Source: Saprospiraceae bacterium (GTDB taxonomy: Bacteria; Bacteroidota; Bacteroidia; Chitinophagales; Saprospiraceae). From it: 64,000 nt of DNA. A model generated the notes under the pieces. That model ran no database searches, had not been told where the DNA came from, and was given only the letters and a program-made list of their open reading frames with translations. Where the stretch lies: the NCBI GenBank assembly GCA_022842725.1, contig JALHOZ010000008.1:1-64000 (forward strand), read 5' to 3'. Of this stretch, positions 8,507 to 15,876 are shown piece after piece. Each line of letters begins with the position of its first letter. Position 1 is the first letter of the stretch. The translations under genes and the position numbers were made by a program.

Positions 8507-9301
8507 TTAATCCGTGATATCCACCAATTCCCAAACTTCCTGGGAAACTACATCTCTCAGTTCATTCAACTTAGTTGAAAAATTGGTTATATCATCCTTA
8601 GGATATACTTTTTTGTATTCATCTGCCATTCCTGTTTTTCCACTTGCCCATGACAATGCCTGATCAACGGTGGTAAAGGTAAAACTAACCGTATAGTCAC
8701 TCTCACTGATATTGGTCGCATAGGTGCGTTTCCATACATTAAATCCTTTTAGTTCCCCTGCTTTTATACACTCTTCAAGCACCGGCTTTAAAGTTTCCAA
8801 TAGTTTTTCATAAGCATCATTGCTGCCTTTTTTGACATTCACAAGGTTAAGCTGTACATGTTCTCCCGGCAATATCCTGGATCCGACGCCCCACTTATAG
8901 GTATAAAGATCAGTGGCTATAGTGGTCCTTACATTGTTTAATGAAGTAAAAAAGTCAGCGATTTCTTTTACGCTCATGGCTTTAATACCCGTATCCCAGG
9001 TGCCTTCTGCTTTCATTTCGATACCGCTTGGAAATACAGAAAGGGTGGCATAATTAAAATCCATACTGCTACCACGTGGTAATGTTCTGCGGTATAGTTG
9101 CCAGGAAGTGATGGTTTTATTGGCAACTCTGGCATCGGCAAGTTTTTTTGATGTTTTCATGTCGATCAGAAAACTTTCATTCATATTTGGCAAGGTTTTT
9201 ATATAATTTACTTCACCAAAAGGGCCTTGTGCCTGACACACATTCAAAGAAAAAAATGTAGTCAAAAAAACTACCATGGATGTTAAAAAAAATGTCTTCA
9301 T
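8507..9301 (-). CDS. Secreted hypothetical protein
   Basis: This 264-aa protein starts with a signal peptide (MKTFFLTSMVVFLTTFF, cleavage near CQAQG). The mature part has two roughly similar halves. In each an aromatic/Arg segment (WQLYRRTLP, and FNVWKRTYA) is followed by beta strands, suggesting a duplicated ferredoxin-like or NIPSNAP-like fold. That is a weak pattern match only. Its leader, start and first ten codons are nearly identical to those of the next gene upstream, although the mature proteins are unrelated. A strong hairpin terminator follows. It has no sorting domain, so it is probably periplasmic. It may be a target of the nearby HTCS regulator, but this is inferred only from position. 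Confidence 0.8.
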   Translation of the reverse strand: MKTFFLTSMVVFLTTFFSLNVCQAQGPFGEVNYIKTLPNMNESFLIDMKTSKKLADARVANKTITSWQLYRRTLPRGSSMDFNYATLSVFPSGIEMKAEGTWDTGIKAMSVKEIADFFTSLNNVRTTIATDLYTYKWGVGSRILPGEHVQLNLVNVKKGSNDAYEKLLETLKPVLEECIKAGELKGFNVWKRTYATNISESDYTVSFTFTTVDQALSWASGKTGMADEYKKVYPKDDITNFSTKLNELRDVVSQEVWELVDITD

Positions 9302-9338
9302 GTTAAAAGATTTTTGTTGGTTAAATATTGATTTTTTT
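9271..9338 (-). repeat. Duplicated leader plus signal-peptide start, copy 1
   Basis: About 68 bp covering the 5' leader (GTTAAAAGATTTTTGTTGG on the + strand) and the first ten codons (MKTFFLTSMV). It matches 9916-9983 with about three mismatches and the same orientation. The similarity stops inside each gene. Confidence 0.85.
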
Positions 9339-9414
9339 AAATTAATTTTTGAATATCGGATACTTCAAATTTGTTGACAAGATTAGTCTGACTCCAAACA
9401 GATAGTACCTGTTG

Positions 9415-9945
9415 CTATTTTGTTGTTGATTCAGATGGTGTCAACTTAAATCCCAATTGTGTTGCTACGTATAAATTGTCAAAGTATATTTGAGAACCCA
9501 TAATTTTACCATCTGCGACTTTGGCAGTGAGTTGAAATGGAAACGTAATCGTCTTTCCGGCTTGTGTAAAAGTGTAATTGCCCCAAAGAGACACCCATTC
9601 ACCTTTGAATACCCCTGACAATACCTTGTGTGTCTGAGTTACAAATCTAACCTTACGGTCTGATTGTGTTTTATAGTTCGCCTGCCAGTTTGTTAAAGTT
9701 TTTTCTACATTGGCAGAATCTATGCTGCTAGGGCCTCTGCCGATGTAATCAGGGTCCATGAGTGATTTGGCTTTGTCCAGATCTCCCGATACCAGACTAT
9801 TTACAAAATCACCGACTATTTTAATATCGGCATCAGCATTTGGGTTTTCAACGATTACTTCCTTGTACGTAGTTTGTGACATACTCATGGTAGAAAAAAA
9901 TACAGAAAATATCGCTACCATAGATGTTAAAAAAAATGTCTTCAT
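9415..9945 (-). CDS. Secreted SnoaL/NTF2-like protein
   Basis: This is a 176-aa exported protein with signal peptide MKTFFLTSMVAIFSVFF and cleavage around MSMSQ. The mature domain has the order expected of an NTF2/SnoaL-like cone: helices (IVGDFVNSLVSGDLDKAKSLM), DPDYIGRGPSS, then long strands (VRFVTQTHKVLSGVFKGEWVSLW, TFPFQLTAKVADGKI). The family binds small hydrophobic ligands or has lost catalysis; no substrate can be inferred. It precedes the 264-aa secreted protein in the same direction, 113 bases away, with a duplicated leader in front of both. A -7-like TAACTTTG lies about 55 bases upstream. Confidence 0.8.
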   Translation of the reverse strand: MKTFFLTSMVAIFSVFFSTMSMSQTTYKEVIVENPNADADIKIVGDFVNSLVSGDLDKAKSLMDPDYIGRGPSSIDSANVEKTLTNWQANYKTQSDRKVRFVTQTHKVLSGVFKGEWVSLWGNYTFTQAGKTITFPFQLTAKVADGKIMGSQIYFDNLYVATQLGFKLTPSESTTK

Positions 9946-10181: not shown

Positions 10182-12662
10182 ATGATATCTCGCCTCGTTT
10201 ATATTATATCTTTTGCCCGCTGTTTCACCATAATCTGTATGTTGATAAGTAGCTCCGCATTCGGGCAGTTCAAATACGAAACCCTCTCCACCGCTCAGGG
10301 GCTATCCCAGGGGTATATCTGGGACATCATACAATGCAGGGATGGTTTTCTTTGGATGACGACCAAAGCAGGACTGAATCGTTATGACGGATACTTTTTT
10401 AAGGTGTATAGCCACGACGCCTTTGACCCTTATTCTATCTCGGACAATGCTACCTTATATCTTTATGAAGACAAAAAAGGCCGCATTTGGGTCGGAAGCG
10501 ATCATGGGCTCAATATTTTTGATAAAAAAACAGAAAGATTTTACCGGATTTTTCACGATGCTAAAAATCCGAACAGCCTGAGTGGCAACAAAGTCGAAGA
10601 ACAGATTACAGAATTGGCCGATGGTCGTTTTTTGGTCAATACGTCTCATGTTGTTTTTGATATCGTCACCCTTCCGGATGATTTTTTCGAAAATGAAGGT
10701 GGAATAAAAATTGAACACATCAACAAACCAAAAAACTCATTCAACCCCGGTAATTACCGCAATGAAATAATTTATACGGACGCTAAAAACATTACCTGGT
10801 ATAAATGTGATGAAAACTTATATCGTTTTAATGAAAAAACGTACCAATTTACATTACAAAAAACGGAAAACCTTACAGGCAATCAGATTATAAAAAATGA
10901 AGATGGCAGTGTTTGGTTTGGAAATGAATACGTCAGTCTGTTTGACGGGATCAATGTTTATCCCACGTTTTCCAAACCTGTTTTTAATGGTCACACAGGA
11001 TATGTTCTGAAAGAAGACAACGGGCGATTGTGGAGGTCCAATAATTCTTTGGGTTTTCTTGATATTTTTGATGTGTCTACATGGCAAAAAGGACAACCAC
11101 TCATTCCTGAAAAGGTTATTATTGCCAGTGATAAAAACGGGCCCGCTAATAAAATATTTAAAGACAGAACCGGTTTGGTATGGTTGGGTCTCAATGGCCA
11201 TGGTTTGCGGAAATATTCTTTTGAATCCGAAAAATTTAATCATCTGGCCAAAGGTAAAAGTCTTAGAAAAATCCAGGCAGATCCTCAAAACAACCTATAC
11301 GTACAAATTTGGGGCGGAGATTTTAAAATTGATGCTCAGGGTAATCTGATCAACAATGTCTGGCTTCAGCATAACCCTTTGGTCAAAGACAATTTTATTT
11401 CTGAAAAAGGAGATCTTTGGTTGACAAAAAGAATCGACGGAACATCATCTACCATTGTTTTTTTAGAACAAATCAACCTGACAACAAAACAAAATAAAAT
11501 CTATCCGGTAGATTTTAAAGGCACTTACAGCCATGAACAACATATCATTCAGGATCAGAATGGTCGCCTTTGGATTGGGGGATTTAATGGTTTTTTTGCT
11601 GTTTTTGATCCGAAAAATGGTCAATTCAAAGAATTTAATTTAAACAACCGTGTTGAAAAAAAACTTAGTTTGGATAATTATACGACGGCGCTCTATAATG
11701 ACAACAGCGGAACGGTTTGGATAGGCACTCAGGAAGGATTTGCAAAAATTGAGAGTAAAAATATTTTAACAACGGCTCCTGAAATCACCTGGTATAACAA
11801 TGACCCAAAAAATAAAACATCGCTCAATAATAATAACGTAAGTACCTTCCTGGAGGACCCGATAGATCAGAATTTGTTATGGATAGGTACTAAAGGGGGT
11901 GGACTCAATCTGATGGAAAAATCATCAGGCAAGGTCAGACATATCACCGTGAATCAAGGTCTGTGTGACAATACCGTTTATGGCATTCTCGATGATAAAA
12001 AAGGAAACATTTGGGGCAGTACCAACAATGGTCTTTTCTGTATATTGGGCAGTACGGATCGCAAAGGTAATTTTGAAATCCGCCACTTTACCGAAGCAGC
12101 AGGACTGCAGGCTGCCGAGTTTAATACAGATGCTTATGCCAAGCTGGCAAATGGACACCTGGCTTTCGGTGGTATCAACGGACTCAACGTTTTTGATCCT
12201 GCGGAAATATTGATTGATACGATAGTGCCCGATATTTTTATCACCAAACTTATAGTCGGTAATCAGGTGGTAAAACCAAATGATGAAAGTAAAATCTTAC
12301 AACAAGCGATTGAATTTACGCAATCCATCACATTACATCACGATCAGGATGTATTTACCCTGGAGTTTTCGTCGTTGGATTTCAGAGCGCCTGAACAGAT
12401 AAAATACAGGTATCAATTGGTCGGAATTGATGATGATTGGTTGGAAATAGGCAACAGGAGAAGCGTCACGTATTCACACTTACCGGCCGGTAGGTACACA
12501 TTCAGGGTACAAGGCAGCAACAGTTTAGGGATTTGGAATGAAAAGGTCAAAGAACTCACCATCAACATCCTACCGCCGTGGTATGCCTCGTGGTATGCCT
12601 ATCTGTTGTATGCGGTAATCCTTGTTTTGGGTATCCGTGCTTTTTATAAATACAAACTCTAA
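10182..12662 (+). CDS. HTCS sensor half: Reg_prop propeller, Y_Y_Y domain, TM; ends at an in-frame TAA
   Basis: This 826-aa ORF is the periplasmic sensor part of a hybrid two-component regulator. It has a signal/anchor segment (about 7-28). Many two-component-propeller repeats follow, for example DGFLWMTTKAGLNRYDG, GRIWVGSDHGLNIFD and GTVWIGTQEGFAKIE. A Y_Y_Y domain lies at about 700-790 (YRYQLVGIDDDWLEIGN), then a membrane segment at about 799-818, ending RAFYKYKL. The TAA at 12660-12662 comes just after the membrane segment. The kinase-bearing ORF resumes in the same frame 9 bases later. In intact HTCS proteins this juncture is continuous, so one codon appears to have become a stop. Ligand unknown; these sensors usually detect oligosaccharides or related compounds. 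Confidence 0.9.
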   Translation: MISRLVYIISFARCFTIICMLISSSAFGQFKYETLSTAQGLSQGYIWDIIQCRDGFLWMTTKAGLNRYDGYFFKVYSHDAFDPYSISDNATLYLYEDKKGRIWVGSDHGLNIFDKKTERFYRIFHDAKNPNSLSGNKVEEQITELADGRFLVNTSHVVFDIVTLPDDFFENEGGIKIEHINKPKNSFNPGNYRNEIIYTDAKNITWYKCDENLYRFNEKTYQFTLQKTENLTGNQIIKNEDGSVWFGNEYVSLFDGINVYPTFSKPVFNGHTGYVLKEDNGRLWRSNNSLGFLDIFDVSTWQKGQPLIPEKVIIASDKNGPANKIFKDRTGLVWLGLNGHGLRKYSFESEKFNHLAKGKSLRKIQADPQNNLYVQIWGGDFKIDAQGNLINNVWLQHNPLVKDNFISEKGDLWLTKRIDGTSSTIVFLEQINLTTKQNKIYPVDFKGTYSHEQHIIQDQNGRLWIGGFNGFFAVFDPKNGQFKEFNLNNRVEKKLSLDNYTTALYNDNSGTVWIGTQEGFAKIESKNILTTAPEITWYNNDPKNKTSLNNNNVSTFLEDPIDQNLLWIGTKGGGLNLMEKSSGKVRHITVNQGLCDNTVYGILDDKKGNIWGSTNNGLFCILGSTDRKGNFEIRHFTEAAGLQAAEFNTDAYAKLANGHLAFGGINGLNVFDPAEILIDTIVPDIFITKLIVGNQVVKPNDESKILQQAIEFTQSITLHHDQDVFTLEFSSLDFRAPEQIKYRYQLVGIDDDWLEIGNRRSVTYSHLPAGRYTFRVQGSNSLGIWNEKVKELTINILPPWYASWYAYLLYAVILVLGIRAFYKYKL

Positions 12663-12671
12663 CAAACCAGG

Positions 12672-14321
12672 ATGGCTTCGCAACTGCAATTTGAGCAAAA
12701 CGAAACCCTTCGGATCAAAGAACTCGACAAGGTCAAAACGGACCTGTATACCAATATGACCCATGAATTTCGAACACCTCTCACTGTCATCCTGGGCATG
12801 GTGCAACATATAAGGCGGTCAGCAGCCGATCACCTCGACAATGGTCTGGATATGATCGAACGCAACGGAAATAACCTTCTGCGTCTGGTCAATGAAATGT
12901 TGGATTTGTCAAAACTGGAAGCCGGCAAAATGGAGTTACATCTTGTCCAAGGTGACGTTATTAATTTTATTCGTTACATCATAGAATCATTTCATTCGGT
13001 AGCAGAAAGTCAGGATAAAAAAATGCATTATCTTTCCTCTATCGACACGATGTATGTAAAATATGATGAAGAAAAAATCCGCCAGATAGTCTCCAATTTA
13101 TTGTCCAATGCCTTAAAATTCACGTCTAAAAAAGGAGACATTTACCTCTCTATATCTCTGGACAATGATCATCATCTGTGTATCAAAGTCAAGGACACCG
13201 GCAAAGGTATACCGGAAAGTCAGCAACACCATATCTTTGACAGATTTTACCAGATTGACAGTACACATACCCGTCATGCTGAAGGTACAGGCATCGGATT
13301 GGCACTGACAAAAGAATTGGTTCAACTCATGAACGGCCGGATTTCTGTCAAAAGCCCGCCTACGGGATCCAAAATAGGTACAGAATTTACAGTCACCCTG
13401 CCGCTGGAAATGATCACAGATTATGTGGAAGAAACAGCAACCCCAAAACCTCCGGTAAACATGATAACTCCGGTAGACGATACATATCAAAAAACAAGTG
13501 TTGATTATCAAAACCAAACCAACTTGGATAAAGAGCTGATCCTTCTGGTAGAAGATAACGCTGATGTGGTGGCATATACGGCAAGTTGTCTCCATGATTA
13601 TCGTCTGGCTGTTGGCAAAGACGGACAGGAAGGTTTGGATATTGCCAGAGAACTCATTCCTGATCTCATCATCACAGATGTTATGATGCCGTTTATGGAC
13701 GGTTTTGAAATGACCCGAAATCTGCGTTTGGACGAGCGCACGAGCCATATACCTATCATCATGCTTACCGCCAAAGCTGATATGGACTCTAAACTCGAAG
13801 GGATAGAGTATGGTGCTGAAGTTTATCTGGAAAAACCATTTAATGTAGATGAACTTACTTTGCGTGTACGCAAATTGTTAGACCAAAGAATCATCCTGCA
13901 AAAAGCCTACGCCACCAGAATTGGGCTGCCGTCTGTTTCAGAAAAAATGGTTGGTGAAGAACAAGGGACACTTTATCATGATATTGTTATTCCGCAGCTG
14001 GAAAATAAATTTGTCAGAAAAGTGGCGTCAGAAATTGAAACGCATCTATCCGATGAAAACTTTGGTGTAGAGCAGCTTGCCAAAAATTTGTTTATGTCGT
14101 ATTCACAAGTACAACGTAAACTCAATGCACTCATTGGTTTGTCGCCCAATCTTTTTATACGTCACCTGCGCCTTCAGAAGGCCAAAGAACTGTTGAGAAC
14201 AACTGACGAAACCATCCAGAATATATCGATGAGCTGCGGGTTTACAGATCCCAGCTACTTTGGCAAGGTCTTCAAACAAGAGTTTGGTGTAACTCCGCAT
14301 GAATGGAGAAATTCTTTATAG
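12672..14321 (+). CDS. HTCS output half: histidine kinase, receiver, AraC-type HTH
   Basis: This 549-aa ORF is in the same frame as the sensor ORF. HisKA begins almost at once, with the phospho-accepting His31 in MTHEFRTPL. HATPase_c follows: N-box Asn142/Asn146 (SNLLSNAL), DTGKGIP at about 175-181 and GTGIGLAL at about 205-212. A receiver domain has Asp336 (LIITDVMMP) and Lys388 (EKPF). The AraC-family DNA-binding domain fills about 445-549 (SCGFTDPSYFGKVFKQEFG). All catalytic residues are present. The start ATG lies 9 bases after the upstream TAA, so translational reinitiation could give a separate soluble kinase-regulator. Otherwise the gene is a broken single HTCS of about 1379 codons, or the stop is a sequencing error. 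Confidence 0.93.
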   Translation: MASQLQFEQNETLRIKELDKVKTDLYTNMTHEFRTPLTVILGMVQHIRRSAADHLDNGLDMIERNGNNLLRLVNEMLDLSKLEAGKMELHLVQGDVINFIRYIIESFHSVAESQDKKMHYLSSIDTMYVKYDEEKIRQIVSNLLSNALKFTSKKGDIYLSISLDNDHHLCIKVKDTGKGIPESQQHHIFDRFYQIDSTHTRHAEGTGIGLALTKELVQLMNGRISVKSPPTGSKIGTEFTVTLPLEMITDYVEETATPKPPVNMITPVDDTYQKTSVDYQNQTNLDKELILLVEDNADVVAYTASCLHDYRLAVGKDGQEGLDIARELIPDLIITDVMMPFMDGFEMTRNLRLDERTSHIPIIMLTAKADMDSKLEGIEYGAEVYLEKPFNVDELTLRVRKLLDQRIILQKAYATRIGLPSVSEKMVGEEQGTLYHDIVIPQLENKFVRKVASEIETHLSDENFGVEQLAKNLFMSYSQVQRKLNALIGLSPNLFIRHLRLQKAKELLRTTDETIQNISMSCGFTDPSYFGKVFKQEFGVTPHEWRNSL

Positions 14322-15423: not shown

Positions 15424-15876
15424 ATGGGACAGTCATTAGCACAAAATTACATCCACATCGTCTTCAGTACCAAGTACAGACAGCATCTGATTCACCCTCC
15501 GGTCGAAGAAGAACTTCACGCTTATCTCGGCGGCATCTGTAATAAACTCGAATGTCATGTTCTTAAGGTCGGAGGCTATACCGACCATATCCATATATTA
15601 TGTATGCTCTCTAAAAAGATAGCCCTCATGAAACTGGTAGAAGAATTAAAATCCCATTCATCTAAATGGATGAAGACCAAAGATCCTTCACTCTCCAATT
15701 TCTACTGGCAGGATGGGTATGGAGCCTTCTCCGTCAATCCGGCTGAAGTAGATGTGGTCATAAACTATATCACTAATCAAAAGGAGCACCACAGGAAGAA
15801 GACATATCAAAAAGAATATAAAGCCTTCCTCGATAAGTATAAGGTAAAGTATGATGAACGTTATGTGTGGGATTGA
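15424..15876 (+). CDS. REP-associated tyrosine transposase (RAYT, Y1/IS200-like)
   Basis: This 150-aa single-strand DNA transposase belongs to the TnpA-REP family. It carries the HUH motif as HIH in YTDHIHILCML (about residues 54-64) and the catalytic tyrosine in INYITNQKEHH, a Y-x3-Q arrangement typical of IS200/IS605 Y1 enzymes. RAYTs cut and join REP palindromes and are thought to have spread them. Here the gene stands alone with no TnpB, surrounded by about ten REPs in both orientations; a REP begins immediately after the stop. The frame is intact, so the enzyme may be active. The length and C-terminal basic tail are normal for the family. Confidence 0.95.
   Translation: MGQSLAQNYIHIVFSTKYRQHLIHPPVEEELHAYLGGICNKLECHVLKVGGYTDHIHILCMLSKKIALMKLVEELKSHSSKWMKTKDPSLSNFYWQDGYGAFSVNPAEVDVVINYITNQKEHHRKKTYQKEYKAFLDKYKVKYDERYVWD

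Follow-up and report, generated by a model that had tools for sequence, protein, structure and literature searches.

A lineage-private in-frame TAA probably interrupts an ordinary hybrid two-component regulator in a Saprospiraceae genome

Does a stop codon that falls between the sensor and the kinase of a hybrid two-component system (HTCS) regulator create a new kind of split regulator, or does it simply disrupt a gene? HTCS-type regulators often sense sugars. The stop considered here lies in the window (the whole 64,000-nt stretch of DNA that was analysed), which is contig C8 of a 4.6 Mb draft genome of an uncultured Saprospiraceae bacterium. This draft consists of 87 contigs, and is 95.5% complete and 1.51% contaminated.

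An in-frame TAA between two halves of one regulator

Two open reading frames (ORFs) on the + strand share a single frame across the sequence CTC TAA CAA ACC AGG ATG at 12657-12674. ORF 1 (10182..12662, 826 aa) is the N-terminal half of an HTCS and ends at the in-frame TAA (12660..12662). It has a hydrophobic, signal-like segment near the N terminus and then Reg_prop beta-propeller repeats, a Y_Y_Y domain (Pfam PF07495, 12381..12572) and a C-terminal transmembrane (TM) segment. Hydropathy predicts the TM segment, which is the most hydrophobic run towards the C terminus of ORF 1 (residues 803-821, SWYAYLLYAVILVLGIRAF, 12588..12644), and the TAA is placed 5 residues past it. ORF 2 (12672..14321, 549 aa, computed mass 62.7 kDa) is the kinase-receiver-AraC half. 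Its first ATG follows the TAA after a gap of 9 nt, and the protein starts directly in the helix before HisKA. Pfam located the HisKA dimerisation/phosphoacceptor domain at 12735..12926 (ORF 2 residues 22-85), HATPase_c at 13065..13409 (residues 132-246), the Response_reg receiver at 13539..13868 (residues 290-399) and HTH_18, of the AraC-type DNA-binding kind, at 14076..14312 (residues 469-547). The matches above the cut-off were Reg_prop and Y_Y_Y in ORF 1, and these four together with HTH_AraC in ORF 2. All seven motifs sought in ORF 2 were found (THEFRTPL, NLLSNA, DTGKGI, GTGIGLAL, TDVMMP, LTAKAD and EKPF), and we take them to have catalytic roles. The initial annotation had described a TAA in the frame of both ORFs after the membrane segment, a next ATG 9 bases past it and intact catalytic residues downstream. 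Our reading of the sequence, the motifs and the Pfam domains agreed with this description.

ORF 1 had sequence relatives in four PDB entries (4a2l, 3v9f, 3ott and 3va6), which all carry names of two-component sensor kinases or hybrids. Pfam, hydropathy and these relatives indicated a Reg_prop/Y_Y_Y sensor, presumably periplasmic, with a TM segment after it. The domains beyond the TM segment (HisKA, HATPase_c, receiver and AraC HTH) come in the order of an HTCS, with their motifs present. An HTCS has its sensor and kinase-regulator in one polypeptide; here, the TAA at 12660-12662 intervenes.

The junction codon in relatives

Among 63 loci, 51 aligned across the junction and the 12 that failed to align were left out of the count. 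Two of the 51 were the window itself. The other 49, which represent 42 distinct places (34 strong homologues and 8 weak relatives only), all had a residue at the stop column, and a stop occurred there in none of the 42. The closest orthologue, L011/L012 (one 6793-base contig of genome G003, same genus), has GAG at this column. It is 77-78% identical to the window over ORF 1 and 86% identical over the available 359 residues of ORF 2, and its frame continues past the junction up to the contig end. The next orthologue, L013 (67% identity), has GAT within a complete ORF of 1385 aa. The remaining relatives have AAA, AAG, AGA, AAC or AAT; the AAT of the own-genome paralogue on contig C13 lies in a frame of 1363 aa. 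The initial annotation had suggested comparing this codon in related strains, where a codon such as AAA would make the stop an error or a private mutation. Every relative aligned there had a sense codon, AAA among them, which points to a private mutation.

The open-frame lengths reported by our searches may join across a stop between matched pieces. For example, 1057 aa was reported for a kinase on contig C4 that really consists of 403 + 653 aa. Therefore, we walked the frames of homologues directly, codon by codon. The junction was passed in all 34 distinct strong homologues; one of them, L049 (genome G194), loses its frame in a short repeat inside the kinase, well past the junction. As homologues cross the junction in one frame, a chance pairing of two ORFs was ruled out. 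The Met that would serve as the new start is already present in the closest orthologues (KMATQ, KMAAQ): the first ATG of ORF 2 is a coding Met in L011/L012, L013, L016 and L017, and L014, L015, L018, L019 and L002 have Ile or Leu at that position.

We also surveyed the family for other splits. The N-half search scored the top three candidates in each genome; 33 of 298 family genomes, counting the own genome, matched at 1e-100 or better. Outside the own genome 38 matches were listed, 34 of them in frames of at least 1323 aa, including one with a TGA inside (G125). The four shorter ones include those in G246 (L038/L017) and G137 (L041), both meeting contig ends, L049 in G194, and G286:C410. Of these 38 matches, 29 were fetched as loci, and the other nine did not enter the reading of the junctions. 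With the C half (four candidates per genome scored), at least 180 of the 298 genomes matched at 1e-90 or better. We inspected 18 of the C-half matches listed; 13 were picked because their frame was short and 5 because a stop was reported within it. No second split at the TM/kinase junction was found in these 18. Three (L065, L070 and L074) run into contig ends. Six (L064, L067, L069, L071, L072 and L075) are HK-REC-AraC proteins with, as judged by eye, an extra N-terminal receiver-like domain. The N termini of L068 and L076 are multi-TM in appearance, an in-frame TAG interrupts a TPR-like sensor in L073 (genome G272), and in L066 a TAA lies about 40 nt away from the contig end. Only L077 was truly interrupted among the five picked for a reported stop; in L078, L079, L080 and L081 the stop was the gene's own end. 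Outside the inspection were matches with short frames close to contig starts (G120, two in G066, G021), others with frames of about 740-1012 aa, and seven further rows with a reported stop. A fully scored search of 10 genus genomes gave eight C-half places, one of which (G004:C77, 744-aa frame) was left uninspected.

A split conserved among relatives, which would be expected of a functional two-protein system, appeared neither in the junction alignment, nor in the frame walk, nor in the N-half search, and with no stop at any of the 42 places it was ruled out. Our literature searches returned no relevant report of an HTCS regulator split by a stop, nor of two-component genes with in-frame stops in draft genomes.

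Selection, translation and rival explanations

Because dS to L013 was saturated, the L012 pair alone was used for dN/dS. Between the window and L012 (NG86), dN and dS were 0.139 and 1.03 for the N half and 0.074 and 1.08 for the C half; on these estimates, both halves are under constraint. With L013 as the outgroup, the window branch has 41 private replacements in the N half and 13 in the C half, and the L012 branch has 56 and 11, respectively (Fisher p = 0.36). For the C half, replacements and synonymous changes stood at 13:24 on the window branch and at 11:38 on that of L012, which is not a significant difference (p = 0.23). This tilt is in the direction of relaxation, but would neither demonstrate relaxation nor rule it out. 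Thus, in the window/L012 comparison there was no significant excess of change in the kinase half on the window branch. The C half contains no further stop or frameshift. As a sign of a kept product this is weak: the C half would have to accumulate about 75-96 neutral substitutions (0.045-0.059 per site) before one nonsense change became 95% likely. As both halves are constrained and the C half has no significant excess, either the stop arose recently or both products are still maintained. The selection data do not tell these two apart; a recent change would leave no mark.

Could ORF 2 be translated? Termination-reinitiation in E. coli is reported to drop by 40-80% at +14 nt, with (almost) none left at +38 nt (PMC10666635). 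According to the same study, reinitiation in Haloferax is reduced yet present at +13/+14 nt and nearly abolished at 22-23 nt. For Flavobacterium johnsoniae, initiation is reported to be favoured by A at -3, -6, -12 and -13 (PMC6847099). The ATG of ORF 2 has A at -3 and -6, and T and C at -12 and -13. L012 and L013 likewise have A at -3 and -6, where they are coding bases, so reinitiation is not what brought this start context about. Compared with shuffles, the RNA at the junction was not unusually structured (z 0.54). Incidental reinitiation at this ATG is physically possible, and from the spacing and context it is plausible that some occurs and gives a 62.7-kDa soluble protein without its sensor.

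Other sensors are interrupted as well. A second Reg_prop kinase of the own genome, on contig C4 (L007/L008/L088), has a private in-frame TGA that divides it into 403 + 653 aa. A search of 199 family genomes with it (six candidates scored in each) gave six matches outside the own genome, in five genomes, with frames of 1034-1068 aa; the TGA column is Trp in three of the six, with an adjacent Trp in a fourth. Nonsense-broken sensors are thus not unique to the HTCS locus, and this TGA fits ordinary gene decay or draft-assembly noise. PF07495 occurred above the cut-off at 10 places in the own genome, and at least two of these genes are interrupted (most of the other eight were not walked). In genome G009 of the same genus another HTCS, L077, has an in-frame TAA between kinase and receiver. 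Such varied stops at varied places fit sporadic nonsense changes or draft-genome noise rather than a programmed device. As a control, four long RND pump genes of the own genome matched a 1021-position family in one piece and free of stops, and a fifth matched in two pieces. Therefore, the assembly does not seem to be riddled with stops, although the sample is small.

Since no compared relative has the stop, an ordinary recent gene-disrupting change is most likely, and a novel type of split regulator less so. We consider that the locus is probably an ordinary HTCS with one lineage-private nonsense codon just after its TM segment. A recent nonsense change was one of the options in the initial annotation, and the sense codons in all relatives aligned at the junction support it, with the recency itself inferred. 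ORF 1 would then give a membrane sensor without output. ORF 2 would be poorly made, not made, or made at a reduced level by reinitiation at the ATG that follows 9 nt after the stop. As a result, ligand sensing would be uncoupled from transcription. Some points do not fit this nonsense reading easily. If the ancestor had GAG, the change to TAA would take two base changes. The C half is free of further stops and frameshifts, as a kept product would be, which is a weak point. The stop also sits where a split does least harm to both products. Residual or altered function is possible with this placement at a domain boundary; nothing in the sequences seems to favour an evolved split.

The main alternative, with a rather small chance, is that the TAA is not fixed and reflects an error in the consensus or a variant from a minority strain. 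A stop that is private among the relatives compared, in a fragmented draft with the completeness and contamination given above, would fit such an origin, as would the other interrupted HTCS/Reg_prop genes in the family (TAA in L077, TAG in L073, TGA in L007 and a frameshift in L049). However, the difference is a clean one of substitution type, the site contains neither a homopolymer nor a repeat, and the small sample of four RND pump genes is whole. We regard it as unlikely that the split is functional, with reinitiation 9 nt on yielding a membrane sensor and a soluble kinase-regulator that re-associate, or a kinase that is constitutive. The gap is within the reinitiation range reported in PMC10666635, the A at -3 and -6 agrees with the positive determinants reported for F. 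johnsoniae (PMC6847099), the local RNA is not unusually structured, and ORF 2 retains all its domains under purifying selection. Against this, the split is found in none of the relatives compared; the ATG and its two A bases were already coding in L012 and L013; the T and C stand where A is favoured; and 6 of the 18 C-half proteins have, by eye, the extra N-terminal receiver-like domain as a possible input, which ORF 2 is without. The genuine split with reinitiation offered in the initial annotation finds no support as an evolved system, being unshared and starting at a coding Met of the closest orthologues. It seems quite improbable that a small change has divided a membrane HTCS by stop-restart into two proteins that both work, one of them a free, soluble kinase-AraC regulator. 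Programmed readthrough of the TAA, or its reassignment, to give a full-length protein is extremely unlikely. The frame is open on both sides of the TAA, but no aligned relative has a stop at the junction, no unusual RNA structure was predicted, and the in-frame stops elsewhere are of differing kinds (TAA, TAG, TGA). In addition, TAA terminates 17 of the 31 window ORFs of at least 200 aa (ORF 1 counted). The initial annotation had named stop readthrough as well, and these observations count against it. Recoding was ruled out: TAA, TAG and TGA all terminate long window ORFs, and the four RND pump genes are free of stops.

Comparison with known regulators

In the HTCS proteins of Bacteroides, the domain order is Reg_prop, Y_Y_Y, TM, HisKA, HATPase_c, Response_reg and AraC HTH, and the order at this locus is the same. 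Such hybrid systems include BT0366 and BT1754 (PMC3404733). The difference is that an in-frame stop here parts the sensor and TM segment from the kinase-regulator, whereas the 34 strong homologues have a single frame. Should ORF 2 prove to give an active product, the locus would offer a naturally occurring test of whether an HTCS output module can work in the absence of its membrane sensor. A stop placed so neatly between sensor and kinase resembles a designed split, and calls for caution, as the comparison finds it in one draft genome alone.

The Reg_prop kinase on contig C4 is similar in having one private in-frame stop, in the same genome, and long unbroken homologues in relatives. It differs in that its TGA is within the sensor part, at a column that is often Trp, whereas the HTCS stop is a TAA at a domain boundary. 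L064 and L071 resemble the split locus in another way, in that a soluble HK-receiver-AraC protein is encoded apart from its sensor. Each belongs to a two-gene system in a genome of the family: the gene for a soluble REC-HK-REC-AraC protein directly follows a long ORF on the same strand whose end resembles that of a histidine kinase, and weak matches to ORF 1 (22-28% identity) fall within the span of the long ORF. Their extra N-terminal receiver-like domain, recognised by eye, is missing from ORF 2. The six proteins with this domain suggest that natural two-piece versions may take their input by phosphotransfer. If the stop-restart reading were true, the locus would be a snapshot of one-piece hybrid regulators turning into two-piece systems.

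Genes adjoining the split regulator

Two divergent genes were located upstream of the gene for the hybrid two-component system regulator (HTCS), on the minus strand at 8507-9945 of the window. One encoded a 264-aa protein without a Pfam match, and the other encoded a 176-aa SnoaL-like protein, whose match was below the Pfam cut-off. Their N termini were alike (MKTFFLTSMV). Relatives of both genes adjoined the HTCS orthologue in L012, the closest orthologous locus, which is from the same genus; they were not found beside the orthologue in L013, the next closest locus. It is possible that these two divergent genes are regulatory targets. About 1.1 kb downstream of HTCS, an IS200-like transposase (Pfam Y1_Tnp) was annotated on the plus strand at 15424-15876.

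Other interrupted sensor kinase genes

The same genome had another Reg_prop/Y_Y_Y sensor kinase on contig C4, at about 185539-188709 (L007/L008/L088), which was broken by one in-frame TGA. Three of the six relatives with long frames had Trp in the column of this TGA. HTCS-type genes were also interrupted in other genomes of the family. In G009, which belongs to the same genus, the HTCS at L077 (C24:44800-51000) had an in-frame TAA lying between HATPase and receiver, and no ATG preceded the receiver. The TPR-like sensor part of an HK-AraC-type gene, L073 (G272:C17), held an in-frame TAG, and the HTCS gene L049 (G194:C215) lost its frame at a short tandem repeat within the kinase part.

Frame length and two-piece relatives

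The open-frame length given by the genome search may run across a stop between two matched pieces. For the C4 kinase it was 1057 aa, whereas the real frames were 403 and 653 aa; at about 47314-48360 of contig C8, a value of 553 aa covered two genes lying side by side, one with 322 codons and the other with 230. This reported length alone is therefore insufficient for calling a gene unbroken.

Two further loci of the family, L064 and L071, encoded soluble REC-HK-REC-AraC proteins directly 3′ of a long same-strand ORF, the C-terminal end of which resembled a histidine kinase. These gene pairs represent a natural two-piece relative of HTCS.
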